DNA of 64,000 nucleotides from Thraustochytrium sp. TN22. Taxonomy: Eukaryota > Sar > Bigyra > Thraustochytrida > Thraustochytriidae. The stretch spans positions 43,189 to 107,188 of the forward strand of contig JABLUY010000124.1 of the NCBI GenBank assembly GCA_013306675.1, in the 5' to 3' direction. Shown here in pieces: positions 3,911 to 63,938 of this stretch (within the stretch, counting starts at the first letter, position 1; each line of letters opens with the position of its first letter). The notes beneath the pieces were generated by a model, which worked only from the letters and a program-made list of their open reading frames with translations, was not told the DNA's origin and did not search any database. The position numbers were made by a program, and so were the translations under genes.

Positions 3911-6900
3911 ATGCCGACGAGGTGGCTCTCGCGAGAGTCCACCGCGAGAGAGCTGACACCTGCGGCCTCCTCGGCGGAGCGGCAGCAGCTGCACCATCAG
4001 CACCAGCAGCACCAGCACCAGCAGCGCCAGCACCAGCCGCAGCAGCTCCAGAAGAGCGAGGATGAGCACCAACTTGTCGTGCAGGTGTGGTCGGTGCAGC
4101 ATGAGGAGGACGAGCTGTCCATGACTCAGCGCGACGCCGACGAGAAAAAGGTCCGGCGGCACTTCGCGGGCCGCAAGGCGAGCACCGTCGCGCCGTCGTC
4201 CGTTTGGCACGAGCGAGACGCCGAGCATGAGGAGGAGGACTACGAGGACGACGATGAGCATGAGCATGAACATGAACATGTTCATGCTGAGCATGAGCAT
4301 CATGAACATGAACATGAACATGAGGAGGACGGTCATCACGACCCGGACGGTGAACCGGCAGACCGAAAGCGCGTGGCGGTCAACACGACAGCGCCGGAGC
4401 GAGATGACGATGGCACCTTCGGTGTCCGCACATACTACGTGAGTATGCTGCTGTCTGTCGCGTACATTGCCTCCTGCTTGGTACTCGTGGGATACGTCCT
4501 CTTGGACAGCGAGCCGGTGCCACGAAGCACCGGCGAGTGTGACAGCTTGGCAGACCTGGCTGACTACAATCAAACCACGGAGCTCGTCTGGCTCGGGCGC
4601 TGCGTCGACATTGAGGAGATCCGTGGGCTCCTGGACGCCAGCACTGTGCTGGACACGTACGAGTTCTCGTTCCAAGCTGCATATGCGCTGGAGGGCGACT
4701 CGCCGTCGCGCGGCCCAGTGGCAACTCTCTTTACCGACGCCAGCGAGAGCGCGGTCAAGGGCTGCTTCACTGCCTCTGGACAAACGCTTTACTCGGCATG
4801 GCAAATGATCTGGTTCCCGCTTGGGATCTTGGCGAGTGCCTCACTGAGCATCCATCGTGACAGCAAGAAGGCCCGCAAGAACCCACTCGCCATGGTACGC
4901 GCCGCCTGGCTGGCCAAGAAGATCGCCGCAACTGGTGATGTCAACCGCCAGAAAGAGGGTGCTGCGGACGACCGCGCTGGTCTGCGCAAGCATCTCGAGA
5001 ACTTGCAGATACGAGCTGCAGAGGCACAGTCTGATGCGGAGAAGGTCGCACAGGAGCTGGCCAAGTGCGAGTCTGCGCTCAAGATCACCCAGGATCGAGT
5101 CGCGGCGCTTGCGCAGCGCCGCGAAGAGGCGCTCGACCACCGAGAGAACATGCAAGCTAACTTGCGCCACGCGGAGAGCAACCAACGCACCAGCCTGGTG
5201 TTGGCAAGCGTCGTCAGCGAGCAAGAGGTCGCCATTCAAGACGCCGAGGACGCCCTCGGCGCTGCGCAAGAGGCAGCCGAAGTCGCTCAGCAGCAATGGC
5301 GGGCCGCCCTCGCCGAGCTCCGCAGAACGAGAACGCACACGGACGCCAAGCGCAAGGAGCTCCGCGACAAGAGAGATCATGCCTTGCAATACCAAGGTCG
5401 CAGCAGGATGGATCCTCTCGCGGACAGCCTGAGCAAGTCGCTCGACCTGCTCGAAGAAGAGTTCAACCGAAGGAAGCGGCTGGTCGTCCTTCCTTGCGCC
5501 TGGCTGCGCTCCACAGAGGAAACGGAGCCAAGTAGTGCTCCCGACGACGAGGCCCTTGGTGCCGAGCGAATGAAGATTCGCCGTTTACTGAAGCGGAGAG
5601 AGCGAAGGGCGTGGGTCTGGTGGCTTCTGGCGGCATCCACTTTTGTTCTGAGTCTAGCCATTAGCATCTCAGAGGTTGTGCGCATGCAAACTCGAGACGC
5701 CGAGAACCTCGATCTCATGCAGCCATTCCCGGCCTGTCCTCGGCTCTCAGATCTCCTCATCACCTCGCACGTGCTCTTTGGAGGCGAGTGCACGGACTGG
5801 ATGCACGTTCACAAGGTTTTGGTCGCCATCGAGGACGCCGGGGACGCGTTGCAAAAGGGTGGGGAGCTCGCCGACCAAATTGCTGGTGCGGTGGGTATCA
5901 GCAGCCAGATCAGGCAGCTGGCCGTGCAAACCCGCGAATGCCTACGGCGTCTGCCCTCGCTACGCGCCAGCGTGGGCCTCAAGTCGAGCTCGTTGACTGT
6001 GACCTTGCCAAGCTTTGCTCTCTTCATTGGCATCTCTCGCCCCAAGATTCGCTGGAAGTTCGTGCCATCGAGCGTGCGAGACGTGATATGGTACGTGATG
6101 CGCCTCTGCATCACGAGCCTTGACATGGCTCTACTGGTCGTTACCAAGCCCTTTGAGCTTGCCGCCAGGTACTTTTTTCGTGCGCGAGATGCGCAGCATA
6201 AGTGGTGGCGGTGGCTACTGCTTTTCCTCATCCTCGGTTCATCGATCGCGCTCGGCGTTGACTTCGGCACCCGCTCGGCTGATGTCTTCCCTGAAACACC
6301 GGCTTCCACGCCCACTGTGCCGCCAACCTCATATCCGACGCTCGCCCCTACGCTCGCCCCTACGCTCGCCCCAGTGCAGCCCATTGGCCCGCCAGCCCCA
6401 GGACCCACCACGAGCTCGCCGACATCCAACCCGACGGCAAGCCCGACCGGGCCAACGAGTACCCCTGCGCCGCTCACATCTCCGCCAGCAACCCTTCCGA
6501 GTCCAACACCCCCGACCCCAGCCACCATCTCTCCCACAATGCCGCCGCAGCCACTTCCGGTCTGGGCACTGGCAGTGTTGGTCGCTCTGCTCGTCCTGCT
6601 CGTGTTGTTCGGACTGGTAGGCTGTCGGCTCTGGTTCTCGGAGGTGTCGAAGGAGTTGAACTTCAAGGACTTCGATCCTACGTCATGCTTGACCATCGGC
6701 CATTGGCCTAGTTGCGCGACCTTTCGCATGTGGCCAAAGGCGCGGTCGTGCGCACCTACCCTCGCATTTCCCGGCAGCTGGTTCACAGGCGTCTGGCCGC
6801 GGAGCTCAAGTTTCTCTTTCGCGAGCCTGCGCGCCTTCGCGGTTTTCGTTGGACGGGGCTTCAGCACGATAATCATTGGAGGCAGCCTCCTCGCTCTCAT

Positions 6901-9340
6901 GTCGCCCGTGCTCGCTCTTGCGGCCGCGGGCGGTCTCCTCTTCGGAGTCGCTATGGCAGCAGGGAGCATCGTCGCAGCTGCACGCTGGGCCAGCTTCATT
7001 GTGTTTCGTGGTGCAGTCCGCGGTCTACGAGCAAGGCTCCCTCGCTGGGCCTGGTCGGCGCGCCTCCGACGCCGGCCGCAACGAACAGAGCATAGGCCGC
7101 TTCCAGCGCCGGAAGGGCGATGCTTACCACGAGCACCAAGCTGCATTCCGCGATCGCGTACTTGTCCATTGCATCCGTCTGAGCCCCGAAGAGGCTGCTC
7201 CGAGTGCACCTGCCAGGAGCACCATAAGCCCAAGAAGGAGGCTCTTGGTGGCATGTGCCGCGAGTGTTACGAGCGCGACATCTACTGTGTCAGGCACAAT
7301 CGAGTCCGTACGGACGAGGCGGTCTGTCTCGTGTGCAAGGACCCGTGCAAGCGATGCTCGCGCAAGGGCAAGCGCGGCATCAAGCTCCCCGCACGTGAGG
7401 AATGCAAGCGCCACTGGTGCACCTTGCACCGGAGAGAGGCGGCCAACGACAGCGGACGTTGCACCGTTTGTCTCCACGAGCACTGCACATTCCACGACGA
7501 TGACCGCGAGGCCCCTCCGCGTCGCGATTGCAGCAAACATTGGTGCTTCGCAGCGCAGCATCGCGCCGCTGCGCCCGATGGCGGCCTGCCGAAGCCGTGC
7601 GAGGTGTGCCAGGATCCCTGCGGGCTTTGCGAAGACGGCGCCAAACAGCCTCGTACGGCATGCGAGGAGCACTTTTGTCCTCTGCATGGCTGCAGCAAGG
7701 TGGCGCAGGGCATTGACGACCCGTCCTGGGTCTGTGAAGCGTGTGCAGACCCTTGCCGCCGATGCAGTGGGCCACAGCGCCCGAAGCGCGACATGTGCAC
7801 GGAGCACTACTGTCGCCAGCACGATCGCGAGACGCCCTGCCTCATCTGCGATGAACCATGCTCCTGCCATCCAGACACCGCGCTGCAAGAGTGCGCCGAG
7901 TGCTTCTGCGCGCGACACGCGCTTGACCTGTGCTGCCTCTCCGACACGTGCATGCATGGCTACTGCTCAAAGTGTACCTGCGGCACCTGCAAGCGCAAGC
8001 TCGACGAGGGTGAGGAGCTCATGGAGGATGGGCGCTGCGCCCAGTGCCAAAACATGTGCCAGCACGGCATTGAGAGGACTCAGTGCGGCGACTGCTGGTG
8101 CGCTGAGCACAACGAGCCTCGCGAGGAGATGCCCGAGGGCTCCAATGTCACCATGCTGTGCAGGAGCTGTAACACCTGTCGTCACCGCGTTCATCCCCGC
8201 AAGGACTGCCCGTTGTGCTTCTGTCGGGACCATGGTCTCAACAAGCTCATTCTGGACGGCGGAGACCTACTTTACTGCCCCAAGTGTCCGTGCTTTCCGC
8301 TCCCGCTCACGAAGACGCGGTTCTGCAAGCTTGTCGCCAAGCTGTACAATGCCGTGGGCGTGCACATTGGAAAGGCTCCCTTTCCTGGCCACGCACTCGG
8401 CACGAACAGGGCCGAAGAGAAGGCCACTGCTGCTGATGCTGCTGCTGGCTTTGGCGACAATGATATGCTCAGCTGGACGGACGTGTGGAGTCAGGTGAGC
8501 TGTAAGCAATTCGCCCTGCAGCCTCTCTCCTTCATGACCTCTGGTGGGCGGCATGTATCAGAGCCTAAGATGACCGCAAAGACACACCGTTGTGTGCGAG
8601 CCATCTGCGCTACGATCAACGCCATCCAATTGGGGGTGTTGAGGCCGCTCTCGATCGAGGAGGTCAACACACGCCACTCTGAGGCCCGCCGCAGGTCGCA
8701 CCCGGATGCGCATGCGCGCATTCCCTGGATTTGGAAAGGAACGATGCAAGCAGAGCGCATGCCGCCGCCGACTTTTACTACTCGGATGGTGTCCAATTTA
8801 TGGAGGACCCCCCGGGCCGTCGACCCAGGCACCGAGGCGAATGCGCGCTGCTTCGTCAACGAAGAACTTATAGCAGCGCTCGAGTCCGATACACGCTGGT
8901 GGCCGCAAGATGCCACGGACGACTCATCAGGGGTCCTTTCCGGCGCCTCGTTCGAAAATATCACGTCTGACCGCGTCATTACGTCTGACCGCTTCGATCC
9001 AATGCGCGACAAACTCGGAGTCCACGATCGGGAAGGCGACCTCCTCGAGATGGCCTTCTTCGCTGACCTCTGGAGGACAACGCATGCCATGCAGCAACAT
9101 GTGCGGGCCTCCACGCAGCAACATGTGCGGGCCTCCACGCAGCAACAAAGGCGGGCCTCCACGCAGCAACATGTGCTGGCCTCGAAGTTCTTTCAACTCG
9201 AGCGCCTCCACCATTACCTCACCGACCCGAACTTTCGGCGAGTTGAGCAGATGTGCACCGCGATGAGCCACGTAGATAGAAGCCACGACGCTGAAGCTCA
9301 AGATGCTGCCGCAGCCGCCAACGAGGACGAGGACGATGAG

Positions 9341-9384
<44 letters not shown>

Positions 9385-9511
9385 CGACGACGGCGGCGGC
9401 GGTGCTGATGATAGGAGGGCCGACCAGCGTCAAGGCTATCCCACGCGAGTGGAGGCGCTTGCTCTCATGCGCAAGCGAGACAGCGGCCCCGCGCCAAGCA
9501 AAGAAACATAA
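3911..9511 (+). CDS. Giant multi-pass membrane protein with Cys/His module array, paralogue A
   Basis: A 1866-residue single-exon protein; I do not recognise the family. Residues 1-170 are cytosolic-type, Gln/His- then Glu/His-rich (GAGCAT/GAACAT repeats). TM1 is ~175-198, followed by ectodomain 1 (~200-290, with LVWLGRCV) and TM2 (~292-314). A coiled coil runs ~350-520. TM3 is ~567-590, ectodomain 2 ~605-690 (CPRLSD), TM4 ~696-710, and another hydrophobic stretch ~766-782. A Pro/Thr/Ser-rich loop with TLAP repeats (~795-880) precedes a TM at ~883-905 and a hydrophobic hairpin at ~984-1035. Residues ~1070-1465 hold about nine Cys/His modules of the form CxxCxDPCxxC...CxxHWCxxH, likely zinc sites. 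The C-terminal region shares LPLTK, PWIW and WWP motifs with B and C and ends with a four-copy 8-residue repeat (~1728-1760) and poly-Asp. It is the most diverged of the three paralogues and has the shortest Cys/His array. Confidence 0.85.
4255..4325 (+). repeat. GAGCAT/GAACAT hexamer tract in paralogue A
   Basis: Degenerate hexamers encode alternating His-Glu residues (about residues 116-138 of paralogue A). The His/Glu run is cytosolic by the predicted topology. B and C do not have it. Confidence 0.8.
9093..9185 (+). repeat. 24-bp tandem repeat, four copies, in paralogue A
   Basis: Four in-frame copies encode QQHVRAST-type octapeptides. The third copy is changed to QQQRRAST and the fourth to QQHVLASK. 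The repeat is a whole number of codons, so copy number can vary without a frameshift. Confidence 0.85.
9337..9392 (+). repeat. (GAC)n poly-Asp tract
   Basis: A trinucleotide run encodes about 18 consecutive Asp residues near the C-terminus of paralogue A. B and C also end in acidic tails but with shorter DDDED-type runs. Confidence 0.85.
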
Positions 9512-10129
9512 TTATTTTGGAGCACCAACACGAACCGCTCCTGCTGATGGTGAATGAGCAGAAGCCCTTGCGCTCATCTACTTGTGCGCAAGCGCGACCG
9601 GAATTGCGCGCCGAGCAGGGAGCCGCGTTGGACTCAACGAGGGTCGCTTGGGCGGCATGTGTCGAGACAAGCCAGCGAGTGGAAAAGCAGTGGCTATCGA
9701 GTGCTCCGATGAATCGGCAGCGGCGGCCAGGTCAGTGAGGGCAAAAGGGCGCTCGCTGTCAAGCAAAAGAGACACGCATTATGCTTTAGACTCTGGGGCA
9801 AGGCATGGCGCGGTGGGACTGTCTGCGCAACTTGAACTTCCGGATGGGGAATGCTGTGGGTGGAGGGCTTCGGTGTTGATGGAGAGGTCATTGTCTGATG
9901 GACCGTGACTACCACGCGCAAATCATGTGGCCGATTTCGCCACTCTGGAACCTTGGGCCCTCGCGGCAGCTTTTCACCGCGCTTCTCCTGGCCAGGGGTG
10001 TACATGACGTTGGGCGGCCGCCCGTCTCGGATCTCCCACACACACCACGCGCATTGCAGCGGGGCGGGCTCGTCCCATTGGCCTAAAAGACCAGCGCGCG
10101 GTCGAATCTCGTGACGGCCTCATGGCTGC

Positions 10130-10600
10130 CGCTTGTCAAAATGCGTTCGCGCAGCTCCTTTGTGCCGGGAGAAGGTTGGCGAGAAGCGCCTGGTTCGCGC
10201 AGAAGACATCGAGCCATACAAAGACCTTCTGCGAGTACTGGTCGTTGAATTGCTTGACGAGCGCCCCGTACAAACCGCGTGCGGCAAGAAGACGTGCTCG
10301 GCAACGTCCTCAAAACTCTATTCCTCGCACAGCTTGAATTCTGGCCCAAGATCACGCAGAGGTCCTCGTTCACTCAAACAGCTCTCACTTGGGCGAGGTT
10401 GCCGCCCAGTTCTGCCACGGGTCGCCATGTGGAACCCAGGTTCAACTTGTCGCCGAGCTCATGGAACGCCACAACAAGCACGACGTCCTATGCGAGCCTG
10501 CTGTCCACTCTGCCCTGGAGCACATTCTGCAGCGCGTCAAGCTGTTGCTTCGACGACGCGCCGCTGCTCTGTCTCGTACGCCGAGGCCCTGCGCGCGCGC
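10130..10600 (+). pseudogene. Coding-like fragment spread over three frames (possible decayed gene)
   Basis: Three adjoining plus-strand pieces read like one protein but in successive frames: about 10170-10275 (ends DLLRVLVVELLDERPVQT), about 10279-10350 (DVLGNVLKTLFLAQLEFW) and about 10360-10560 (VAAQFCHGSPCGTQV then LVAELMERHNKHDVL). The frame changes occur without convincing GT-AG borders, so frameshift decay is more likely than introns. The family is not recognised. On the other strand, 9890-10050 has another coding-like piece with a CAWC motif, so the A-B spacer may contain remnants of more than one sequence. Confidence 0.35.
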
Positions 10601-11782: not shown

Positions 11783-11840
11783 AGCAGCCTGCAGGCTGCT
11801 CGCGGCTGGAAGCAGGCTGCTCGCGGCTGGAAGCAGGAGG
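11783..11840 (+). repeat. 21-bp tandem repeat
   Basis: About two and a half copies of a 21-base unit containing GGCTGCTCGCGGCTGGAAGC, upstream of paralogue B. No function is evident. Confidence 0.7.
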
Positions 11841-12188: not shown

Positions 12189-15100
12189 ATGAGCGGGTTG
12201 TTTCCGCGCGGCGACGGCGGTGCACGCCGTCGTGGCGGCCCGAGAAGCGACCAGCTTGGCCACAGGACCACGGACGAGGGGGGCCGCGAAGAGCACCGCC
12301 CGGACCGCCGAGACGAGGACTCGAGGGTCGCGACGCACGTGCAGGGCGCTGACGAGCTGGACGGCGACTGGAGCGACGAGGAGGAGAAGGATGAATGGCC
12401 GATGAGCATGCGCCAGCTGGGCACGGTGGTGGATGGCAGAGTGGTGAGCCGCGCCGCGAGCTTTGGCCAAGGGGAGGCCGCCTACTCCGCGCGAGGAGGT
12501 GGTCTGCGGCGGCGCATTGGATGGAGCTCACGGCACAGTGAGGGCCAAGTCGTGACAGTGCTCGCGCCTCAAGGAGATGCAGATGACGAGGACGCGATCA
12601 GCGCCCGAGGCAACGGGACGGGCGTCTCTTCGGTCACCAGGAAGACCCTCGGCAGCATCGCGACTCGCAAGTCGAGTCCGCCGCGGAATCGCTGCCCCAC
12701 ATTCGTGCAAAGCGTGATCCGCATGGCATGGCTGAAGTGGCACGCCGCAGCCTCGGCGGTTAGCGTCCTCTTCGGCGCCTTTTGGGCCTGGTTCGCGTAT
12801 TCCGTGTTCCTGGAGTGCTCCGAGGTCTTCCTCCCTGCGCAGGCGTGTCCGGACCTGGAGCAGGTCGCTGAGGGGATGGGTTCATCCACCGTCCTGTGGC
12901 TCGGCCGATGCGTTGCCCTGGACGAGGTGCGCTGGCTTTTGGGCCGGAGTGCGAGTCGAGACGCCTTCGGATTCGCCCACGACATCGTCGACGCTGGCTG
13001 GAGCGAGGCAGGTCAGACGGCCATGACGACAACCTTCGCGGCCACTCAAAGTGCGGAGGGCTGCTATAGTGGGCCAGTTCGAATCGCCTACATCCTGACC
13101 CAGATCAGCTGGATCGTGATCGCCTTCCTTCTCGGCTGGCTCGGGAAGTTCTATCACGAGGAAAAGGAAGCGCAGCTCCAAGGTCCCATCATCCTCAAGG
13201 TGGTGAACTTCCTCGGCTGGAACAAGCTCTTGGTTGAGAGTACATCAAAGGAGAAGCCCCCCGGCGGCGAGGGTGGGTCTGGCGGCGGCCAGGCTGGTCG
13301 TCGCGACGGCGACGCCGGGTCCGGCGGCGGCCGGGCTGGTGAGCTTCCGGACTATCCCTTGCACAGACGGCCCGAGCTCGACAAGGCCCTCACGAGCTTG
13401 CGCAGGGAGACCAGCGGCCAAAATAACGCTCAAGAGGGTCTCAGGGAGCCTGAGAGGCTGCAAAGAAGGGTTGACAACCTCACGCACAGGCGTTCGACCA
13501 AAGAGCGGGGCCTGAGGGTCGCCAAGGAAAACGTGGCGACGTCGTTAGAGGAGTTGGGGAAGGCTCGTGAAGAGGTTGAGCGTGTGGGCGCCGAGCTCAA
13601 CGAGCTTTACGAGCAGGCCCTCGCCAGCGCCGGTGACGCGCGTCGCTCATCGTCTCGGGCCGCCCATTTGCCACCAAGTGGGACGGATCTTTCTGGCGAA
13701 ATCAGTGGAGTCAAGGAGCAGCTGGAAGCAGCAAAGGCGAGGCAGCGGAAAGCTGAAGTAGCCTACGAGACTTGTCAAGAGAACCTCAAAAAGGCGAGAA
13801 AAGAGTTCGACGAGCTTGACAAGAAACTCGTCCGCGCGCAGGATATGGCGGACAGCGCGCTGAAAAAGGCGACCGACTTCGCCGGGCTGCTCCTCTACGT
13901 CGTCGTGGATCAAATTTCCGCGGAAACCAAGAAGCGGGAGAGGCGCAACGCGAAGCGCAAGGCCGCCATGGACAAGGCGTTGGTAAAAGTGGCACTTTTC
14001 GCCAGGTGGAGCAGCGGCACGATCATGGACTCGGCCTTGATGTTAGGATCTAAACTTTCCAGAGCTCGGAGCGACCCAAGCGAAGCGTCGGCCGCAGCGC
14101 CAGGAGACGGGCCCACCCCAAGCCCAACCGGAGAGGTGGAACCCCCCACTGAAGGATCGAAGGCCACGAGGTCTCGCCTGCAGGCGGCAGGTCAGCGCCT
14201 TGGCCACATGCGCGGATTCTTCTCCTTGGGGTCGGGATCCAAGTCATCCAGAGCCGGGAGAGTGTCGACCGCACCGCTCGGAGACGAAGCGTCGGCCGCA
14301 GCGCCAGGAGACGGGCCCACCCCAAGCCCAACCGGAGAGTCGGAACCCCACACTGAAGACTCCAAGGCCACGAGGTCTCGCCTGCAGGCGGCAAGTCAGC
14401 GCCTTGCTCACTTCCCCGGATATTTCGCCATGGCCATGCCGAACCGAGTCGACATAAAGGCCGCGCCGTCTGCTGCCTGGGTGAAGGTGAAGACGATTGG
14501 TTCGCACGCTGGGAGCGTCTCGAAAGGGGTGCGCGCGGCGTTTGCCGGCCTGCGCGGGATGTTCTCGTCCGATGAGTCCGGCGATTTTGCCAACGAGGTG
14601 TATCGCAACGAGAAAATGCTCAGTCCCGCGGAGAGAAAGGTGGCCCTCGAGGTCAAGAAATACGTGGCTTCCGTACACCGACACTGGGAGATCTGGGCAT
14701 GGATTTGGTGGATTCCGTCGCTCCTCAGCTCACTCGTCGCACTCGCGTTGACCATCACGACGCTTGTGGCCGTGTACCAGAGCTCGGACGAGACAGTCGA
14801 CCCTCAGAGTGGCTGTCCACGCCTCTCAGATGCGGTTCTCGCCTCGTCTGTGTCTCTCGGCGGAAGTTGCGTCTTTGGGTCCGACCTGAGCCGCGTTCTG
14901 CGTGTCATCGAGGACTCGGCCAGCCTCCTGGACTCAGTTGCAGACTTTGCCGATGCTGCCAGCGTCATTGACCTCGATAACACCCCGGACGTCCCTGGAC
15001 TGCGCACGATGAGACGAGTCGTGACTCAATCGAGACTTTGCTACCGGCGCTCTGCCGGGATGCGAATGGCTCAGGTGGGTCGGGTGGGCGTGGTGAGCAT

Positions 15101-18100: not shown

Positions 18101-19364
18101 CTCCGCGCACGCGGACGAGGACTTCCAGCCCGGCACCAGAGAGCATTGGCCCTGCGACACGTGCCGCAGGTGCATCCACGGCGTGCTGCTGACATCGGAG
18201 TGCACAAAGTGCATGAGCTGCGAGCATGACGTGTACCCGCGGGAGAAGTGCGCCTTGTGCTACTGTCGCAGGCACCAGCGGTTCAAGGACATCACCGAGA
18301 CTGGGGTCCGAGTCTGCCGCCAGTGCATCTTCATCCCGCTCCCTCTCACCAAGAAGCGTTTCTGCAAGTTCGCGGCCAGGCTCCACAACGTCATCGGGGA
18401 GATCACCGGGAAAGAGCCCGTTCCGGGTGGGTCCATGGAAAAGAACGATCGGCTTCTCGACAGCTGGGACACGGGGTCTGCGGCCAGGTGGGAACCGGCT
18501 TCCATGCGCCTGCACTGGTTCAAGGACATTTGGCCTCAGGTCATGTGGTACGACCCGGGCCTACATCGCCAAGGCAACGAGGTCGCTCCAGGACTCACGA
18601 GCGGTTACAAGGGGTCGCAGACTCTGGGGAAGGAGAAACAGCGGCGAGCGGCGCGGGCCATCATGGGCGCGATCCGGGCGGTGCGAGACCTGCAGTTCTT
18701 CTCGCTCCGCAGCGGAGAGGTCGTGACTCCTCCGCAGGTTCTCGAGGCTGACCAGCCCATCCCGTGGATCTGGCGCTCGCCTTTCGCCTTCCACCCTGGC
18801 CACACCATGTCCTGGGAGTACCGCATCACGCAGCTTCGTCTTGCCTCCGCCGTGCAGGAGGACCCTCCGAAGTGGTGGCCGGACAGGGAAATGAGGGATC
18901 ATGATCCCCTACATGACCGGCTGTGCGTTTTCGAGCCTTGCGGCACGGACGCCAGCGAGCTGGCTCTTCTCGCACAGCTCTTCGAGGAATCGCTCGGCGC
19001 AACCAACGCCTTCTACTTTTGCTCGCTGGAGAGTCCAGGCCTGCGTCCTCCAGGCCATCATCCACCCTTGCGAGAGTTGGAGAGCCACCTCACACCAGAG
19101 CAGCTGCAGGTCGTCGAACAGATCAAGGACACGGCCCATGCGGAGCTGCGCGAAGAAGTCATTCGCGACGGCCGGGTCGAGGTACGTGGAGGGGTGGCGC
19201 ACGGCCCCAAGCTTGACGAGGATCGTGCCGTGCTCGCGCAGTGGCGAGCCGAGCACTCAGCCCACGAGGACGATGAGCCCTTTGTCGAGGAACAGCACCT
19301 CGACGTCCATCCTCATCATGGCGACGACGACGAAGATGATGAAGACGAGCAGGCCCAGCCCTAA
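12189..19364 (+). CDS. Giant multi-pass membrane protein with Cys/His module array, paralogue B
   Basis: A 2391-residue single-exon protein. The start at 12189 (MSGLFPRG) is chosen because residues from there align with paralogue C (DQLGH/DQVGH; GLRRR); the open extension back to 11397 does not. Order: charged N-terminus; TM1 ~184-208; ectodomain 1 ~210-295 (ACPDLEQ, VLWLGRCV); TM2 ~299-318; coiled coil ~395-600; a tandem duplication (~632-748); TM3 ~835-862; ectodomain 2 ~875-960 (GCPRLSD, LGGSCV); TM4 ~966-983; a hydrophobic segment ~1012-1030; Lys/Pro-rich degenerate repeats ~1050-1165; a TM pair (~1168-1190, ~1242-1270) around a Pro/Thr loop; and further hydrophobic segments ~1322-1405. 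About 13 Cys/His modules fill ~1408-2060. The C-terminal region (PWIW ~2190, WWP) is conserved with A and C and ends in an acidic tail. Cytosolic placement of the Cys/His array is inferred from likely reducing conditions and basic flanks. Confidence 0.88.
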   Translation: MSGLFPRGDGGARRRGGPRSDQLGHRTTDEGGREEHRPDRRDEDSRVATHVQGADELDGDWSDEEEKDEWPMSMRQLGTVVDGRVVSRAASFGQGEAAYSARGGGLRRRIGWSSRHSEGQVVTVLAPQGDADDEDAISARGNGTGVSSVTRKTLGSIATRKSSPPRNRCPTFVQSVIRMAWLKWHAAASAVSVLFGAFWAWFAYSVFLECSEVFLPAQACPDLEQVAEGMGSSTVLWLGRCVALDEVRWLLGRSASRDAFGFAHDIVDAGWSEAGQTAMTTTFAATQSAEGCYSGPVRIAYILTQISWIVIAFLLGWLGKFYHEEKEAQLQGPIILKVVNFLGWNKLLVESTSKEKPPGGEGGSGGGQAGRRDGDAGSGGGRAGELPDYPLHRRPELDKALTSLRRETSGQNNAQEGLREPERLQRRVDNLTHRRSTKERGLRVAKENVATSLEELGKAREEVERVGAELNELYEQALASAGDARRSSSRAAHLPPSGTDLSGEISGVKEQLEAAKARQRKAEVAYETCQENLKKARKEFDELDKKLVRAQDMADSALKKATDFAGLLLYVVVDQISAETKKRERRNAKRKAAMDKALVKVALFARWSSGTIMDSALMLGSKLSRARSDPSEASAAAPGDGPTPSPTGEVEPPTEGSKATRSRLQAAGQRLGHMRGFFSLGSGSKSSRAGRVSTAPLGDEASAAAPGDGPTPSPTGESEPHTEDSKATRSRLQAASQRLAHFPGYFAMAMPNRVDIKAAPSAAWVKVKTIGSHAGSVSKGVRAAFAGLRGMFSSDESGDFANEVYRNEKMLSPAERKVALEVKKYVASVHRHWEIWAWIWWIPSLLSSLVALALTITTLVAVYQSSDETVDPQSGCPRLSDAVLASSVSLGGSCVFGSDLSRVLRVIEDSASLLDSVADFADAASVIDLDNTPDVPGLRTMRRVVTQSRLCYRRSAGMRMAQVGRVGVVSISLPAIFGFYIFSRPDIRWVYTPALIKNAVRRAFDKTKEFASLIWSVVVFIIRVMVFPCMRMIEEVHEIAEPKTDSPATSGSQEGPTRKGIEPTRKVSKPAPRDPDGPPGVPGTPDDGGKSNTSGGQDGPRRKGSRPTLEKSKPSLIDPDDRTGGRGTPTPRNHDKSTLTPKDNDRSTPIPGARDGPKSNRSTLTLRRLAIFASVVVLPAGVAIAVAWALTKPWPQPAGPVALSPTPSPSTIVATLVPTPVPSAGGPTPSPTPGCTGLNCEWALWIVVIIAVAVAAGLSVLGMLVVIAVAGKLRPEDFFDVLRRWCSEVPRVVASSCPRPRLPALPELPRPRGTCRACAYVAYMFSLFTTMMGWLLEGLLLVVFASPLLAIAAACAAVLAAVVVALLAVALVLGLALGVLFVLYRLAFGLYRLAKLAAGVLWMLFVRCFPGHCPSCARDRRLRIWRFCDDHHCRKHHYFWRDGEDPCPVCYADAEVCECSRSRVLERCQRCYCSRHERKVMPGGTHTFRLCSCRSYGQCLVCLDPCPNHIDCARTECPDCFCQRHNKPKDLSRGGCEDCFCAIHYDVRVDGNGNCPHCRCAHRSQRQECDRCWCQVHACSLRLRRCQDGACSGFAEVGAVEDDDHFSERLDHATIDMNACPQCAGPLAKRLECIHCAFPCGPCQDAGVAPAYYERECKDHWCTTHERSDADGVEEPPARKCIVCRDPCEVCRDAGVQSPSLPAREECPHWCSTHARKAVDFEAVEDGDKCEVCKDGCDSHDHDADETRRPTRHNCLRHWCFDPQHEHNGEQDGYEQPCRVCADPCRFCAHGTKIARQDCEEHFCAPHDRYKELLPDGSGWACDVCADPCEECALAFPPKRTDCYRHYCKRHDRPVNENRAADDPMRDSGECLICSDPCSCHPRLARIECAECYCTIHARDLCTTSDCARGRCSKCTCVNCGHRFDLDAGEGPLADQPDRCDVCKNWCHHRRDIHTCLACWCTQHDQPRIIPSAHADEDFQPGTREHWPCDTCRRCIHGVLLTSECTKCMSCEHDVYPREKCALCYCRRHQRFKDITETGVRVCRQCIFIPLPLTKKRFCKFAARLHNVIGEITGKEPVPGGSMEKNDRLLDSWDTGSAARWEPASMRLHWFKDIWPQVMWYDPGLHRQGNEVAPGLTSGYKGSQTLGKEKQRRAARAIMGAIRAVRDLQFFSLRSGEVVTPPQVLEADQPIPWIWRSPFAFHPGHTMSWEYRITQLRLASAVQEDPPKWWPDREMRDHDPLHDRLCVFEPCGTDASELALLAQLFEESLGATNAFYFCSLESPGLRPPGHHPPLRELESHLTPEQLQVVEQIKDTAHAELREEVIRDGRVEVRGGVAHGPKLDEDRAVLAQWRAEHSAHEDDEPFVEEQHLDVHPHHGDDDEDDEDEQAQP
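14079..14400 (+). repeat. Tandem duplication inside paralogue B
   Basis: Two in-frame copies of a ~58-75 residue unit lie head to tail. Both contain ASAAAPGDGPTPSPTGE and KATRSRLQAA. The unit sits between the coiled coil and TM3 and is absent from C, so it arose after B and C separated or was lost in C. Confidence 0.85.
16249..18456 (+). repeat. Near-identical tract shared with paralogue C (copy in B)
   Basis: This segment matches 23316-25513 almost base for base over long runs, covering the last hydrophobic segments and the whole Cys/His array. Just upstream (about 16200-16248) the two genes differ at many sites. One visible difference inside is a 6-base CTCGCG-type duplication in B (EVCECSRSRVL versus EVCECSRVL). 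The part around 17965-18055 is more diverged than its surroundings. Confidence 0.85.
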
Positions 19365-20463: not shown

Positions 20464-23400
20464 ATGAGCAGGCGGCTCTCCCGCGGCCGCGGCCGCGGCG
20501 GCGGCCGTGGAGGCCGCGACGACCAGGTCGGGCATACGATCGGGGCTGTAGAAGAGGAGCCCTGGGCCTATGGTTCTTGGGAGGAGCGCCCCCATCGCCA
20601 AGGCGAGAATGCCGCTCTTGCGCTAAGCGTGCGACGCATGCCTCCCGACGAGCAGGATGGCGAGTCGAGCGACGAGGAGAGGCACGACTCGCCAATCGGC
20701 GGGCGCCAAGTTGGCGGGCTCGTACATCACATGCAGCACGATGAGCCGGGATCGGAGCCGAGAGACGAGGACGGGCAGGCCAACAGCAGCCATTCTGACA
20801 TGCGGGAGATCACCGCAGCAAGCCTCGACCAGGCGGGGGGCAGTTCCCTTCAAGGCGGGCTGAGGCGGCGTCTCTGCTTCCCTTCGAGGACCAGCAAGCC
20901 CCACAAGCCAGAGGATCCTCCCAAACAGAGGGACGAGGAGACGAGTGGCGGGACTGGCGCCAAAAAGCCATCCACCGACGAGAGCCACGAGAACACCTGG
21001 TGGAAAGCTTTGCGCGACGCTGCATACTATAGGCTGCACTTCGCCGCTTCGGCCGTCAGCGCCCTCTTCGCCGTGTTCTGGGTCTGGTTTGCGTACTCCG
21101 TGTTCCTGGAGTGCTCAGACGTTTTCCTGCCCGCGCAAGCATGCCCAGACCTGGAGCAGATCGCTGACAGCATGGGCTCATCTTCCGTGCTTTGGCTCGG
21201 CCGTTGCGTTGTCCTGGACGAGGTGAGATGGATCCTGGGCAGGAGTGCAAGTCGGGACGCTTTCGGCTTCGCCAACGACATTGTGGATGCTGGCTGGGGA
21301 GAATTGGCTGGATCCTACACGCAGTTCGAGCTTGCAATCGGCCGTGGCACAGATCGGTGCTTTAGCGGAGCGGTGGAAGTCGTCTACGTCATTGCGCAGG
21401 TGAGCTGGCTCCTGATCGCTGCACTCCTCAGCTGGCTCGGGTCTTTTTATCATGAAGAAAAGGAGGCCCAGCTCCGAGGCCCGATCATTGTCGAGATGAG
21501 CAGGACTATTGGATGGGTCAGTAAAGACGGCGAGCCCGAGTATGTATATAAGCGACATAGACGGCCCGCACTCACCGAGGCTTTACAAAAACTTCACGAT
21601 GAGACCGGATCAAGAAGTCTGGCGGAGCAGAAAGAGAAGCTGGAGGAGCAGAAAAGGATGCTCACAAAAGAGGTCGATGAGCTCGAGGAAGCCTGCAGGT
21701 CCGTAGGAAAAGACCTTCAAACTGAACTCTCCAACGAGATAGGGACAGCCAAGAATTTGAAGACGGCGATGGAGAACGTGCGGCGCGCGGTGGATGATCT
21801 TAATGCGTTGCAGGAAGAGGCGCTCGCTAACAATGCGCGCCAGTCGCTGCCTCCGCTTGCGCCCGTCCAGGACGGAGAGGCTCTCGAAAGCGCCGAGCGC
21901 CGATCAGTGCCTCGGTCTGCCATTGTATTCAGCGGAAGATACCTGCATGGTGAGATTCGCCGAGCGAAGTCTGCTGTCCAAGAAGCTTTTCAACGTCAGC
22001 AGGAATGTGAGACGGCGCACAAGCTCCAACAAGACAAGGTTCGTGCATACAGGGAGGAACTCCGCCTGAAGACGATCGACGTCAGAAATGCACGGATAAG
22101 AAGCGCAGAAGTGTCAGAAGAGAGCGCAAAAGTGGTAGATGAGAAAGCCACATTTGCTGGGAAGCTTCTCGAGACCATTGAGAATGCGGTGACCGCGGAG
22201 GCCGAAAGGAGGCAAGCTCAGAAGAAAAGACGCAAAGTGGCCCTTCAAAAATTCGTCAAGAGAGCTCTGTGCATTAACTACGATGACAGCGGCAAACAGG
22301 ACAGCGGGTCTCAAGAGCAACAAGAAAAAGCTTCGGAAAATTACTCTGGCGCGCGGGCAGACGTAATTCGCGAAGTGGAAAACTACGTCGTGTCTGTGCA
22401 TCAGCATTGGGAGAGATGGGCATGGATTTGGTGGGTCCTCTTCTGCCTGAGCTCGCTCCTCGCGCTCCTTCTGACAGTCTCGACCCTGGCAGGCCTCTCA
22501 CCTACCTTTGACGCCGCAAGCGTAGTCCAGGGTGGCTGCCCACGCCTCTCGGATGCTGTTCCTGCAGCGCACGTATCTCTCGGGGGGAGCTGCGTGTCCG
22601 GAGCCGAAGTCAGCCGCATCCTGCGTGTTGTCGAGGACTCGTACGACCTGCTCGAGTCGGTCGCAGATTTTGCCGATGCTGCGGACTTCGTTGACTACGG
22701 GAGAAGTTCGAACGACGCTACTCTCCCCACACTACGGCGACTCGCGAAGCAAACGCAACTCTGCTACAAACGCTCGGCTGGTTTGCGCTGGACGCAGCTG
22801 GCTCGTGTGGTTCTGGTCAGCATTAGCTTGCCGACCGTATTCGGCTTCTTCATCTTTCGAAGGGAGGTAAAGGAGGTAAAGAAGGTAAAGAAGCGGGATC
22901 AAGATCAAGAGAATGAAAAGGAGCCGAAGCCAGAGAATCCAGAGGAGCCAGAGAATCCAGAGGAGCCAGAGAATCCAGAGGAAGGTTTCAACGGCCGCCG
23001 ACGCTCGTGCAGCGAAGCTTCTCGCCCCGTGGCTCGTAGTTGCACACGCCCACGGCTTCCAGCTCTGCCCGATATCAACGACTCCCGACGCTGGTGCAGC
23101 GAAGCTTCTCGCGCCGTGGCTCGAAGATGCACACGCCCACGATGCACACGCCCACGGCTTCCAGCTCTGCCCGAGCTCCCGAGACCGACCGGCACGTGCC
23201 GAGCGTGCGACTACATCGCGTATCTCTTTTCTCTCGTCTCCGCAGTGGGCGCTTGGCTGCTGGACGGTCTGCTGTTTGTCATCGTCGGGATGCCACTTTT
23301 AACCCTTGCCGCAGCCTGCGCCGCCGTCTTCGCTGCAGTCGTAGTCGCGCTCCTCGCTGTTGCTCTCGTACTCGGGCTGGCGCTCGGCGTGCTCTTCGTG

Positions 23401-26400
23401 CTGTACAGGCTGGCCTTTGGGCTCTACAGGCTGGCCAAGCTCGCGGCCGGGGTGCTGTGGATGCTCTTCGTGCGGTGCTTCCCTGGCCATTGCCCATCGT
23501 GCGCGAGGGACCGCCGACTGCGGATCTGGCGATTCTGCGACGACCACCACTGCCGGAAGCACCACTACTTCTGGCGCGACGGCGAGGACCCATGTCCGGC
23601 ATGCTACGCGGACGCCGAGGTCTGCGAGTGCTCGCGTGTGCTCGAGCGCTGTCAGCGCTGCTATTGCTCGACACATGAGAGGAAAGTCATGCCGGGCGGG
23701 ACCCACACCTTTCGCCTGTGCAGCTGCAGATCCTACGGCCAGTGCCTGGTCTGCCTCGACCCTTGTCCGAACCACATTGACCGCGCGCGCCCCGAATGCC
23801 CCGACTGCTTCTGCCAGCGCCACAACAAGCCCAAGGACCTCTCGCGGGGCGGCTGCGAGGACTGCTTCTGCGCAATCCACCACGACGTTCGCGTGGATGG
23901 CAACGGCAACTGCCCGCACTGCAGGTGCGCGCACCGCTCGCAGCGCCAGGAGTGCGACAGGTGCTGGTGCCAGATCCACGCGTGCAGCCTCCGCTTGCGA
24001 CGGTGTCAAGACGGAGCGTGCTCGGGCTTTGCCGAGGTGGGCGCGGTCGAGGACGACGACCACTTCTCGGAGCGCCTCGACCACGCCACGATCGACATGA
24101 ACGCGTGCCCGCAGTGTGCCGGTCCGCTTGCGAAGCGGCTGGAGTGCATCCACTGCGCATTTCCGTGCGGGCCATGCCAGGACGCCGGCGTGGCACCGGC
24201 GTACTACGAGCGCGAGTGCAAGGACCACTGGTGCGGCAAGCACAAGAGGAGTGACGCCGACGGTACCGACGAGCCGCCGGCGCGCAAGTGCATCGTCTGC
24301 CGCGACCCGTGCGAAGTGTGCCGCGACGCTGGCGTGCAGGGCCCGAGCCTCCCGGCGCGGGAAGAGTGCCCGCATTGGTGCTCCACGCACTCGCGCAAGG
24401 CCGTCGACTTCGAGGCGGTCGAGGACGGCGACAAGTGCGAGGTGTGCAGGGACGGGTGCGACAGCCACGATCACGACGCCGACGAGACGCGGCGCCCCAC
24501 GCGTCACAACTGTCTCAGGCACTGGTGCTTCGACCCGCAGCACGAGCACAACGGCGAGCAGGACGGCTACGAGCAGCCTTGCATGGTCTGCGCCGACCCA
24601 TGCAGGTTCTGCGCGCACGGGACCAAGATCGCTCGGCAGGACTGCGAGGAGCACTTTTGCGCGCCACACGATCGCTACAAGGAGCTGCTTCCGGACGGCT
24701 CCGGCTGGGCGTGCGACGTGTGTGCCGACCCGTGCGAGGAATGCGCTCTGGCGTTCCCGCCGAAGCGGACGGACTGCTACCGACACTACTGCAAGCGGCA
24801 CGACCGGCCCGTGAACGAGAACCGCGCGGCCGACGACCCGATGCGGGACAGCGGCGAGTGCCTCATCTGCTCCGATCCGTGCTCGTGCCACCCTCGACTC
24901 GCGCGCATTGAGTGCGCGGACTGTTACTGCACGATCCACGCTCGCGACCTCTGCACGACCAGCGACTGCGCGCGAGGGCGCTGCTCGAAATGCACGTGCG
25001 TCAACTGCGGCCACCGCTTCGATCTCGACGACGGCGAAGGGCCGCTTGAGGACAACCCGGCCCAATGCAACGCCTGCAAGAACTGGTGTCGCCACCGGCG
25101 CGACGTTCATGCGTGCTTGGCCTGCTGGTGCACTCAGCACGATCAGCCGCGCATCATCCCTTCCGCGCACGCAGACGAGGACTTCCAGCCTGGCACCAAG
25201 GAGCATTGGCCCTGCGACACGTGCCGCAGGTGCATCCACGGCGTGCTGCTGACATCGGAGTGCACAAAGTGCATGAGCTGCGAGCATGACGTGTACCCGC
25301 GGGAGAAGTGCGCCTCGTGCTACTGTCGCAGGCACCAGCGGTTCAAGGACATCACCGAGACTGGGGTCCGAGTCTGCCGCCAGTGCATCTTCATCCCGCT
25401 CCCTCTCACCAAGAAGCGCTTCTGCAAGTTCGCGGCCAAGCTTCACAACGTCATCGGGGAAATCACCGGGAAAGAGCCCGTTCCGGGTGGGTCCATGGAA
25501 AAGAACGATTGGCTCCTCGATCACTGGGAACCGAAGTTAGCCTGGAACCCAGGTTCCATGCGCCTGCACTGGTTCAAGGACATTTGGCCGCAGGTCGCCT
25601 GGTTTGATCCATTTCGCCAAGGCAATGAGGTCGCTCCGGGACTCACGAGTGGCTACCAGGGCTCGCAGACTCTGAGGAAGGAAGAGCAGCGACGAGCGGC
25701 GCGGGCCATCATGGGCGCGATCCGGGCGGTGCGGGACCTGCAGTTCTTCTCGCTCCGCAGCGGCGAGGTCGTGGCTTCGCCGCAAGTTCTGGATGCCGAC
25801 CAGCCCATCCCGTGGATCTGGCGCTCGCCGTACGTTTTCCATCATGGACTCACCATGTCCTGGGAGTACCGCGTCACGCAGCTTCGCGTCGCCTCCAGCG
25901 TGCAGGAGAACCCTCCAAACTGGTGGCCGGACAGGGAGGACATGAGGGATCACGATCCCCTGCACGACCGGCTGTGCATCTTCGAGCCACACGGCACGGA
26001 CGCCAGCGAGCTGGCGCTTCTCGCCCAGCTCTTCGAGGAATCGCTCGGCGCAACCAACGCCTTCTACTTCTGCTCTCTTGAGAGCCCAGGCCTGCGTCGG
26101 CAAGATGACCCCCCCCTGCGAGAACTGGAGAAGCACCTTACCCCAGAGCAGCTGCAGGTCGTTGAGCACCTCAAGGATACTGAGGGCACTATGAGCCTTC
26201 GCCAGAAGGTCAGGCGCGACGGCCGGGTCGAAGAGCGTCAAAAGGTTGTTTCCGGAGGGCCCAAGCTCGACGAGGATCAGGAGATGATGAGGATGTGGCG
26301 CGCCGAACACTCAGCCCGCGACGACGAGGAGCAGCACCTGCACTCCCATTCCCTTGCTGGGAACATCGATGGCGACGAAGACGACGAGGATGAGCAAGCC

Positions 26401-26409
26401 CAGCCATAA
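20464..26409 (+). CDS. Giant multi-pass membrane protein with Cys/His module array, paralogue C
   Basis: A 1981-residue single-exon protein; start at 20464 (MSRRLSRG) chosen by alignment with B. It has an Arg/Gly-rich then acidic N-terminus, TM1 ~187-216, ectodomain 1 (~217-300, ACPDLEQ, VLWLGRCV), TM2 ~305-328, coiled coil ~375-620, TM3 ~650-678, ectodomain 2 (~688-775, GCPRLSD, LGGSCV) and TM4 ~780-799. It then differs from A and B: the TM pair with the Pro/Thr-rich loop is missing and is replaced by a basic stretch, PENPEE repeats and a duplicated WCSEASR...RPRLPALP unit. Hydrophobic segments ~916-1000 lead into ~13 Cys/His modules (~1004-1655) nearly identical to those of B. The C-terminal region and acidic tail follow. 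C is therefore a two-hairpin version of the B architecture. Confidence 0.88.
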   Translation: MSRRLSRGRGRGGGRGGRDDQVGHTIGAVEEEPWAYGSWEERPHRQGENAALALSVRRMPPDEQDGESSDEERHDSPIGGRQVGGLVHHMQHDEPGSEPRDEDGQANSSHSDMREITAASLDQAGGSSLQGGLRRRLCFPSRTSKPHKPEDPPKQRDEETSGGTGAKKPSTDESHENTWWKALRDAAYYRLHFAASAVSALFAVFWVWFAYSVFLECSDVFLPAQACPDLEQIADSMGSSSVLWLGRCVVLDEVRWILGRSASRDAFGFANDIVDAGWGELAGSYTQFELAIGRGTDRCFSGAVEVVYVIAQVSWLLIAALLSWLGSFYHEEKEAQLRGPIIVEMSRTIGWVSKDGEPEYVYKRHRRPALTEALQKLHDETGSRSLAEQKEKLEEQKRMLTKEVDELEEACRSVGKDLQTELSNEIGTAKNLKTAMENVRRAVDDLNALQEEALANNARQSLPPLAPVQDGEALESAERRSVPRSAIVFSGRYLHGEIRRAKSAVQEAFQRQQECETAHKLQQDKVRAYREELRLKTIDVRNARIRSAEVSEESAKVVDEKATFAGKLLETIENAVTAEAERRQAQKKRRKVALQKFVKRALCINYDDSGKQDSGSQEQQEKASENYSGARADVIREVENYVVSVHQHWERWAWIWWVLFCLSSLLALLLTVSTLAGLSPTFDAASVVQGGCPRLSDAVPAAHVSLGGSCVSGAEVSRILRVVEDSYDLLESVADFADAADFVDYGRSSNDATLPTLRRLAKQTQLCYKRSAGLRWTQLARVVLVSISLPTVFGFFIFRREVKEVKKVKKRDQDQENEKEPKPENPEEPENPEEPENPEEGFNGRRRSCSEASRPVARSCTRPRLPALPDINDSRRWCSEASRAVARRCTRPRCTRPRLPALPELPRPTGTCRACDYIAYLFSLVSAVGAWLLDGLLFVIVGMPLLTLAAACAAVFAAVVVALLAVALVLGLALGVLFVLYRLAFGLYRLAKLAAGVLWMLFVRCFPGHCPSCARDRRLRIWRFCDDHHCRKHHYFWRDGEDPCPACYADAEVCECSRVLERCQRCYCSTHERKVMPGGTHTFRLCSCRSYGQCLVCLDPCPNHIDRARPECPDCFCQRHNKPKDLSRGGCEDCFCAIHHDVRVDGNGNCPHCRCAHRSQRQECDRCWCQIHACSLRLRRCQDGACSGFAEVGAVEDDDHFSERLDHATIDMNACPQCAGPLAKRLECIHCAFPCGPCQDAGVAPAYYERECKDHWCGKHKRSDADGTDEPPARKCIVCRDPCEVCRDAGVQGPSLPAREECPHWCSTHSRKAVDFEAVEDGDKCEVCRDGCDSHDHDADETRRPTRHNCLRHWCFDPQHEHNGEQDGYEQPCMVCADPCRFCAHGTKIARQDCEEHFCAPHDRYKELLPDGSGWACDVCADPCEECALAFPPKRTDCYRHYCKRHDRPVNENRAADDPMRDSGECLICSDPCSCHPRLARIECADCYCTIHARDLCTTSDCARGRCSKCTCVNCGHRFDLDDGEGPLEDNPAQCNACKNWCRHRRDVHACLACWCTQHDQPRIIPSAHADEDFQPGTKEHWPCDTCRRCIHGVLLTSECTKCMSCEHDVYPREKCASCYCRRHQRFKDITETGVRVCRQCIFIPLPLTKKRFCKFAAKLHNVIGEITGKEPVPGGSMEKNDWLLDHWEPKLAWNPGSMRLHWFKDIWPQVAWFDPFRQGNEVAPGLTSGYQGSQTLRKEEQRRAARAIMGAIRAVRDLQFFSLRSGEVVASPQVLDADQPIPWIWRSPYVFHHGLTMSWEYRVTQLRVASSVQENPPNWWPDREDMRDHDPLHDRLCIFEPHGTDASELALLAQLFEESLGATNAFYFCSLESPGLRRQDDPPLRELEKHLTPEQLQVVEHLKDTEGTMSLRQKVRRDGRVEERQKVVSGGPKLDEDQEMMRMWRAEHSARDDEEQHLHSHSLAGNIDGDEDDEDEQAQP
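22927..22982 (+). repeat. 18-bp tandem repeat (PENPEE) in paralogue C
   Basis: Three in-frame copies of an 18-base unit (GAGAATCCAGAGGAGCCA type) encode PENPEE hexapeptides in the cytosolic segment following TM4. Confidence 0.85.
23003..23180 (+). repeat. ~85-bp tandem duplication in paralogue C
   Basis: Two head-to-tail copies encode CSEASR(P/A)VAR..CTRPRLPALP. The second also contains a small inner duplication (RCTRPRCTRPR). B has one copy of the equivalent unit at about 16030-16110. Confidence 0.85.
23316..25513 (+). repeat. Near-identical tract shared with paralogue B (copy in C)
   Basis: Partner of 16249-18456. The match begins abruptly at the hydrophobic segment before the Cys/His array and fades after the codons for KEPVPGGSMEKND. 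Beyond it the C-terminal region is still similar but with many more differences. Confidence 0.85.
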
Positions 26410-63930: not shown

Positions 63931-63938
63931 CGGTCGAG

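Follow-up and report, generated by a model that had tools for sequence, protein, structure and literature searches.

Three very long open reading frames follow one another in the genome of Thraustochytrium sp. TN22, a marine, single-celled thraustochytrid close to Hondaea. Thraustochytrids are an industrial source of omega-3 oils. Judged by GC content (45%; PMC7073664), strain SZU445 is a different genome. The frames lie in a stretch of 64,000 nucleotides (the window), and an initial annotation of it had proposed a tandem array of giant multi-pass membrane proteins of no recognised family. The locus raises the question of what these proteins are, and what they may do.

A family of long membrane proteins

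The tandem array is confirmed: three intact frames of 1866, 2391 and 1981 residues lie on the plus strand (Table 1). Genes 1 and 2 are 34% identical over 673 aligned positions, genes 2 and 3 are 87% identical over 1104, and all three are homologous to a pair of proteins from a second organism (32-33% identity). Conservation in that organism, together with the dN/dS values given below, rules out a pseudogene or chance frame. Single exons of this size had been taken as a sign of lineage-specific expansion. They are no argument for it, because the neighbouring helicase of 2244 residues is likewise a single frame.

Table 1. Features of the three genes in the window
Feature	Position	Strand	Basis
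Gene 1, family member, 1866 aa	3911..9511	+	frame, hydropathy, homology
Gene 1 hairpin 1 (TM-ectodomain-TM)	4424..4855	+	hydropathy, alignment
Gene 1 hairpin 2	5594..6046	+	hydropathy, alignment
Gene 1 third hairpin, Ser/Thr/Pro-rich (mucin-like) ectodomain	6203..6649	+	sequence, hydropathy
Gene 1 last TM cluster	6836..7003	+	hydropathy
Gene 1 Cys/His array	7163..8287	+	composition, repeat profile, pair pattern
Gene 1 C-terminal conserved region (PLPLTK to end), acidic tail	8297..9508	+	family conservation
Gene 2, 2391 aa, start ATG matching that of gene 3 by homology; frame open since 11397	12189..19364	+	
Gene 2 hairpin 1	12729..13151	+	hydropathy, alignment
Gene 2 hairpin 2	14682..15146	+	hydropathy, alignment
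Gene 2 mucin-like hairpin	15684..16010	+	sequence, hydropathy
Gene 2 last TM cluster	16158..16367	+	hydropathy
Gene 2 tract near-identical to gene 3 (recombination tract)	16276..18425	+	gene 2/3 comparison
Gene 2 Cys/His array	16425..18326	+	repeat profile, pair pattern
Gene 2 C-terminal conserved region	18336..19361	+	family conservation
Gene 3, 1981 aa from ATG at 20464; open frame from 20104	20464..26409	+	
Gene 3 hairpin 1	21025..21453	+	hydropathy, alignment, genome search
Gene 3 hairpin 2	22405..22869	+	hydropathy, alignment
Gene 3 last TM cluster	23215..23433	+	hydropathy
Gene 3 tract near-identical to gene 2	23342..25485	+	gene 2/3 comparison
Gene 3 Cys/His array	23491..25386	+	repeat profile, pair pattern
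Gene 3 C-terminal conserved region	25396..26406	+	family conservation

The single architecture proposed for the three proteins holds for the paired hairpins, the Cys/His array and the conserved C-terminal region, the motifs LPLTK, PWIW and WWP being present in all three genes, but not for the coiled coil, the mucin-like hairpin and the last TM cluster, which vary. The mucin-like third hairpin is found in genes 1 and 2, but not in gene 3. A clear coiled coil occurs in genes 1 and 2 and a borderline one in gene 3, and none was seen in the relative G5: the best-scoring window exceeds every one of 100 shuffles in P0001, P0002 and P0005, is matched by 5, 3 and 4 of 100 in P0003, G4 and P0004, and by 74 of 100 in G5. 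The coiled coil was therefore dropped as a defining part of the family. The 9-13 Cys/His modules claimed per protein agree roughly with the 8, 12 and 12 stretches that a profile of the G4 repeat finds in genes 1, 2 and 3 (8, 10 and 9 with i-E ≤ 1; 2, 5 and 4 at i-E 1e-3), while no stretch appeared in 14 decoys, shuffled or reversed.

A search of the 37.9-Mb assembly detected at least five family genes on two contigs (three in the window, G4 and G5 on contig C428), along with a single decayed relic. Hairpin 1 matches all five genes, and beyond them the hairpin query found nothing in the assembly at E ≤ 0.1. Among 5.8 billion proteins, the only two relatives were P0004 and P0005 of the other organism, which are probably a tandem pair, neighbours on one contig, because both list the same longest contig of 18,478 bases. 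The family proteins span 1331-2391 residues. In all seven members, the Cys/His array is followed by a region with the motif LT[KR][KT]R[FL]CK; this C-terminal region comprises 308-404 residues including the tail, and contains residues invariant in 7/7 members.

The family is characterised by two TM-ectodomain-TM hairpins, in each of which three ectodomain cysteines are conserved. Both hairpins could be aligned in five members; in G4 and P0005, the fourth TM falls under the hydropathy cut-off. Since hhalign aligns hairpin 1 with hairpin 2 (probability 84, P 7e-6, with no control run), they are apparently copies of one unit. The hairpins would anchor the protein with both termini in the cytosol. 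Sequons are denser in the predicted ectodomains (11 per 1253 residues versus 38 per 13,230; Fisher p 0.0026), an excess that rests mainly on P0004 and P0005, the ectodomains of genes 2 and 3 having none. The charges flanking TM4 in genes 2 and 3 speak against a topology with both ends inside, and those flanking TM1 are weak in P0004.

The view that the proteins belong to no recognised family was upheld. Pfam, NCBIfam, PHROGs and PDB sequences gave sub-threshold or weak matches only, and no credible match to a characterised family was obtained from Pfam, NCBIfam or PDB sequences. Matches of the TM part to curated receptor, channel and tetraspanin families (Pfam, NCBIfam) were all below the curated cut-offs, as was the match of the Pfam family RNA_pol_3_Rpc31 to the acidic tail of gene 1 (E 0.0088), which was set aside. 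A viral origin was discarded, as there was no match among viral contigs, or in PHROGs for the three proteins queried there; prokaryotic relatives were likewise absent among GTDB contigs. No Hondaea relative was found, though the database does include Hondaea, with one protein or more from four sources. Family trees had long branches and weak forks, and no conclusion is built on them. Sequence comparison sets these proteins apart as a family for which no description was found in the open-licence PMC literature.

The Cys/His repeat and its predicted zinc pairing

The clean case of the repeat is G4, in which 21 units, C-x2-C-x3-C-x2-H-x7-C-x2-C-x-C-x2-H, follow head to tail at an exact spacing of 32 residues. 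All predicted ligands are kept (168/168), and 207 of the 210 unit pairs are just 53-80% identical in DNA. Because non-ligand positions are also conserved (V/I at position 5 and an aromatic residue at 25 in 21/21 units, P9 in 20/21, E20 in 19/21), the pattern points to a folded unit more than to loose chelation. Distinct modules also keep their order between organisms. In composition, the arrays of five members have about 14% Cys and 6% His. The number of ligand pairs varies widely, from 22 in G5 to 108 in G4, and the G4 array bears a recent duplication.

We infer that the cytosolic stalk would be a chain of C3H zinc knuckles built from the pairs p1 (CxxC), p2, p3 and p4 (CxxH), with one zinc shared by p2 and p3, another by p4 and the next p1, and links of 3 residues and of 1 residue alternating along the chain. 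Among the 54 modules of the admitted pattern (p1-p2 gap of 3 or 4, p3-p4 gap of 1, His in p4), the final residues of p2 and p3 are H,C in 31, C,H in 19, H,H in 4 and C,C in none; without the 21 G4 units the Fisher p is 1e-5, for modules that are related by descent. Sites with short links on both sides have exactly one His in 59/59 cases outside G4 and in 48/49 within it. Counted from the first pair, G4 has 52 one-His sites out of 54, which none of 2000 shuffles reaches. The corresponding counts (with the shuffles of 2000 that reach them) are 9/16 (887), 12/24 (1303) and 12/24 (1318) in genes 1, 2 and 3, 6/11 (1354) in G5, 19/29 (59) in P0004 and 16/23 (115) in P0005. A single unbroken zinc register in every array was thus rejected: it holds in G4 only, and the other six arrays, counted from the first pair, do not keep one register, either because the regular expression missed irregular pairs or because the chain is broken. 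A chain of C3H zinc sites accommodates the ligand pairs of G4 throughout and those of the six other arrays locally.

Candidate roles

Our leading reading, still tentative and somewhat less likely than an even chance, is that the proteins are thraustochytrid membrane-anchored scaffolds or receptors. The zinc stalk, unbroken over 21 units in G4 and with irregular stretches in the other arrays, would display the conserved C-terminal region, which presumably binds a partner. The receptor, sensor or organising role proposed at first is a guess.

If the array were instead a string of domains resembling RING or B-box fingers, the family would be membrane ubiquitin-ligase receptors, with ectodomains that sense and an array that recruits E2 or substrates. 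A four-unit profile run against the PDB matches MDM2 RING chains only (13/13 rows, E 0.003 to 1.5), and the printed alignment with this C2H2C4-type RING shares a KPCPVC-like knuckle, the order CxxC, CxxH, CxxC and the 10-residue spacing between two CxxC pairs. The match, if real, would favour cross-brace pairing. However, no RING other than that of MDM2 was matched, the HMMER bias correction on the match is about 6 bits, and a Pfam RING family is absent at E ≤ 10 for 5/5 array rows and 5/5 members of alignment A1. Curated RING or B-box profiles of Pfam were not found in whole G4 or G5 up to E 1; in the PDB, a single-sequence search reached a solved RING at E 0.13, and the A1 profile found none up to E 10. 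The family also differs from MDM2 in the 3-residue p1-p2 link, in the extra CxxH pair per unit and in the unbroken chain of G4, and the ends of the G4 array misfit cross-brace pairing. We consider this reading unlikely. In tandem zinc-finger proteins such as the NF-X1 type, short Cys/His fingers that contain CxxHxC motifs are likewise arrayed; the family differs from them in having TM hairpins and no Pfam match.

It is also unlikely that these are structural proteins, specific to labyrinthulomycetes, of the bothrosome or the ectoplasmic net, in which the stalk would bridge the membrane and dense material. The family was found only in this thraustochytrid and one other source. Candidate net proteins have been sought among such lineage-specific genes, and the accessible part of a report on Aurantiochytrium limacinum lists labyrinthulomycete-restricted unknowns, some of them membrane-associated (PMC12221091). 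However, that part does not describe its 18 candidates in this way, or a multi-pass protein with a Cys/His array, and, if the proteins were central to an organelle that both organisms share, it would be surprising that no Hondaea relative was found.

By analogy with metallothionein gene amplification, the stalk could store or sense zinc while tethered to the membrane, with many sites that buffer metal or report on it and a copy number set by duplication. The ligands kept in 21/21 G4 units, the varying pair number and the recent G4 duplication would agree with this. The conserved non-ligand positions and module order, however, are unneeded for mere storage, and the hairpins and C-terminal region are left unexplained, which makes the proposal quite unlikely. 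Metallothioneins are small and Cys-dense, with few aromatic residues or His. They share the many cysteines and the growth in copy number, but the Cys and His content, the aromatic residue of every G4 unit and the setting in long membrane proteins exclude the family from their ranks.

Homogenisation of the stalk and its length

Because genes 2 and 3 are nearly identical over the array, at silent sites too, but not over the hairpins (silent-site identity 0.96 versus 0.43-0.46), their comparison indicates that recombination has homogenised the Cys/His stalk and not the hairpins. Plain segmental duplication does not account for the pair, as the near-identity ends within the genes and the hairpin stretches are just 68-74% identical in DNA. 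Repeats of at least 30 bases are lacking in the intergenic stretches 9512-12188 and 19365-20463; at 26410-27620, there are GC-rich ones only.

Selection at the protein level is visible between genes 2 and 3 in both parts (NG86): dN is 0.279 and dS 1.044 over 330 hairpin codons, and 0.059 and 0.204 over 1067 codons of the C-terminal half. Diversifying ectodomains are thus unsupported (hairpin dN/dS about 0.27). Proteins for recognition or adhesion at the cell surface, as in allorecognition, with divergent outer and homogenised inner parts, would suit the silent-site contrast, but are improbable with hairpins under purifying selection and only five genes.

For the membrane-anchored scaffolds or receptors that we favour, stalk length would be altered by tandem unit duplication, and neighbours homogenised by recombination. 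A more specific version, possible though on the doubtful side, is a polyzinc rod, its C3H sites alternately linked by one and three residues and its length set by duplication of the 96-bp unit, which would keep the conserved domain a set distance away from the membrane and so serve as ruler or tether in a structure specific to labyrinthulomycetes. If true, this would be a protein family with relatives found in two organisms only, and with metal sites that in G4 would run uninterrupted for about 670 residues. Structural biologists would gain a simple repeat for a metal-stapled rod, and thraustochytrid cell biologists concrete candidates for unexplained membrane structures.

Members of the family in the genome and in other organisms

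The three giant frames were reread in the window sequence and lie where the initial annotation had placed them. The lengths that it gave for genes 2 and 3 match ATGs at 12189 and 20464, which are similarly placed (MSG... and MSRR...) upstream of sequence common to both genes. The window (C27:43189-107188, in an assembly of 37,891,866 bases and 453 contigs) has a GC content of 60-73% in 2-kb steps, and long single-exon frames are present.

Segments of genes 3 and 1 were searched against the assembly, with match counts that are lower bounds. Beyond the window genes, they identified two frames on contig C428, termed G4 and G5 and located on the same strand, and a short stretch on contig C71. Both G4 and G5 retain the hairpins, the Cys/His array and the conserved C-terminal region, and carry low-complexity linkers in place of the last transmembrane (TM) cluster. 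With hairpin 1 as the query, the genome yielded five matches at E <= 0.1, one each in genes 1-3, G4 and G5. The frames flanking the C71 stretch have relatives upstream of G4 (32-44% in parts), and the stretch is therefore probably the relic of a segmental copy.

Residues 1130-2000 of the gene 3 frame were compared with 5.8 billion proteins, with candidates limited to about 1155-3676 aa. Two of the 3060 candidates matched: P0004, with 2214 aa, and P0005, with 2115 aa. Both come from another organism and are 32-33% identical to the query. Their genes appear to lie side by side, as the same longest contig (18,478 bases) is listed for both. The profile A1, built from family members, had no matches among 2470 candidates of about 336-1070 aa, and neither viral nor GTDB contigs contained a family match. 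As a control, residues 900-1800 of the neighbouring helicase were used. Among the best 120 of 6918 matches, the top one was ASCC3 of Hondaea fermentalgiana, a member of the Thraustochytriidae, Labyrinthulomycetes (88%), followed by JGI and MMETSP proteins at 72-76%, and then by proteins nearly all at 51-54%. The database contains at least one Hondaea protein from four sources, so that the Hondaea proteome is presumably included, and an orthologue of the searched lengths should have appeared. Alternatively, it may be masked by a fragmented gene model or by strong divergence, because candidates need exact five-residue words in common with the query.

Features in the window (C27) and on contigs C428 and C71
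Feature	Contig or stretch	Position	Remarks
Gene 1	window	3911-9511	1866 aa, plus strand
Gene 2	window	12189-19364	2391 aa, plus strand
Duplication in gene 2	window	14081-14433	149 bp, 89%
Duplication in gene 2	window	15333-15574	132-bp unit, about 1.8 copies
Gene 3	window	20464-26409	1981 aa, plus strand
Chromodomain frame	window	31177-32556	N-terminal chromodomain (E 5.6e-11); by eye, a long acidic region and multiple hydrophobic segments; unusual chromodomain, on a likely membrane protein
Helicase	window	37757-44491	control query
HTH protein	window	54504-55691	Tc5-transposase-type and Psq-type HTH matches, the latter under its cut-off
Repeat in HTH protein	window	55244-55640	132 bp x3, 94% matches; encodes a repeated GRGRPKGS-containing unit
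Hexamer CGAGAC x11	window	63935-64000	exactly at the end of the contig (107,188 bases)
G4	C428	97229-103834	2201 aa
G5	C428	107070-111065	1331 aa
719-aa frame	L041 (from C428)	233-2392	sole other long plus-strand frame between G4 and G5; no Pfam match up to E 1
Module fragment	L042 (from C71)	4758-5084	decayed, in-frame stop inside

Repeat units and predicted metal sites of the Cys/His array

Residues 1079-1750 of G4 consist of 21 units, each exactly 32 residues long, with the pattern C-x2-C-x3-C-x2-H-x7-C-x2-C-x-C-x2-H, and the eight predicted ligands are retained in all of them (168/168). The units are 53-80% identical at the DNA level in 207 of 210 pairs. The pairs 2-6, 3-7 and 4-8 reach 90, 99 and 97%, and units 2-4 and 6-8 are a recent duplication, offset by 384 bp. 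With a profile of the unit, stretches were detected in every family member, and none in 14 decoys (7 shuffled and 7 reversed). The last canonical module scored 1.7e-8 or better in 7/7 members, which suggests that the G4 array probably grew from that module.

Unit-profile stretches, Cxx[CH] pairs and one-His sites in the seven arrays (last column: shuffles, out of 2000, that reach the one-His count)
Array	Stretches	i-E <= 1	i-E <= 1e-3	Pairs	One-His sites	Shuffles
Gene 1	8	8	2	33	9/16	887
Gene 2	12	10	5	48	12/24	1303
Gene 3	12	9	4	48	12/24	1318
G4	25	25	23	108	52/54	0
G5	6	6	2	22	6/11	1354
P0004	12	11	4	59	19/29	59
P0005	12	11	2	46	16/23	115

To collect modules, each with four successive ligand pairs (p1 to p4), a regular expression was used in which p1 and p2 are separated by 3 or 4 residues, p3 and p4 by a single residue, and p4 has to contain His. 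It retrieved 54 modules, of which 52 have three residues between p1 and p2; between p2 and p3 there are 6 to 18. Classified by the final residues of p2 and p3, 31 modules are of the H,C type, 19 are C,H, 4 are H,H and none is C,C; without the 21 G4 units, the counts are 10, 19, 4 and 0. In lists of Cxx[CH] pairs with hand-set bounds, 7/7 arrays begin with a p2- or p4-like pair and end with a CxxC pair. Both observations suit a predicted pairing in which p2 and p3 would share one metal, and p4 and the next p1 another.

The register set by the first pair of G4 gives sites with exactly one His nearly throughout; no short gap spans any site, and the links between sites are short in 51/53 cases. 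A single register fails in the other six arrays, each tested against 2000 shuffles. Among sites with short links on both sides, exactly one His is present in 59/59 outside G4 and in 48/49 in G4. Judged by these counts, which like the end-residue counts are non-independent because the modules are related to each other, the predicted C3H chain runs cleanly through the G4 array and in patches through the others. Outside G4, it is interrupted by irregular pairs, which are either missed by the regular expression or true breaks. Halving the pair counts would give roughly 11 to 54 predicted sites per array, a rough figure outside G4.

Homogenisation and local duplication

Genes 2 and 3 have identical four-fold silent sites in 218/226 codons of the array, compared with 24/52 in hairpin 1, 16/52 in the loop and 22/51 in hairpin 2; the hairpin stretches are 68-74% identical in DNA. 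Scanned in 50-column blocks, identity is 0.30-0.48 at 15701-16040 on the gene 2 side and 0.58-0.84 from there to 16275. It climbs near 16276/23342 and stays at 0.78-1.0 until about 18425/25485. Further 3', values of 0.5-0.96 extend towards the stop codons, past which they drop below 0.5. The tract is the product of gene conversion or of partial unequal exchange, which are indistinguishable here. Growth through local duplication also occurs in non-array parts, as the two internal duplications of gene 2 fall in the loop and linker.

Membrane part and relation to known families

According to hydropathy, the family core has four TMs arranged as two hairpins, with the fourth TM of G4 and of P0005 under the cut-offs used. 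An hhalign comparison without a control run (probability 84, P 7e-6) suggests that the predicted ectodomains 1 and 2 are duplicates of a single unit, and three Cys per ectodomain are invariant across five aligned members. An extra, Ser/Thr/Pro-rich hairpin is present in genes 1, 2 and P0005, and absent from gene 3, P0004, G4 and G5. As a whole, the ectodomains have an excess of sequons, which genes 2 and 3, counted with their long open frames, do not share. In 7/7 members, net charge places the side N-terminal to TM1 inside (in P0004 by a single charge), but for TM4 of genes 2 and 3 it points the opposite way, so that the predicted topology is only likely.

Searches of Pfam, NCBIfam, PHROGs and PDB sequences did not identify a credible family match. 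The one lead, the MDM2 RING (E 0.003, PDB sequences), is a weak match that is subject to a bias correction. No published description of the family was found in the literature searched. The family is real and, at the sequence level, appears new; it may have a hidden kinship to a known zinc fold. Among several readings, a role as scaffold or receptor is the most likely one, and is put forward tentatively.
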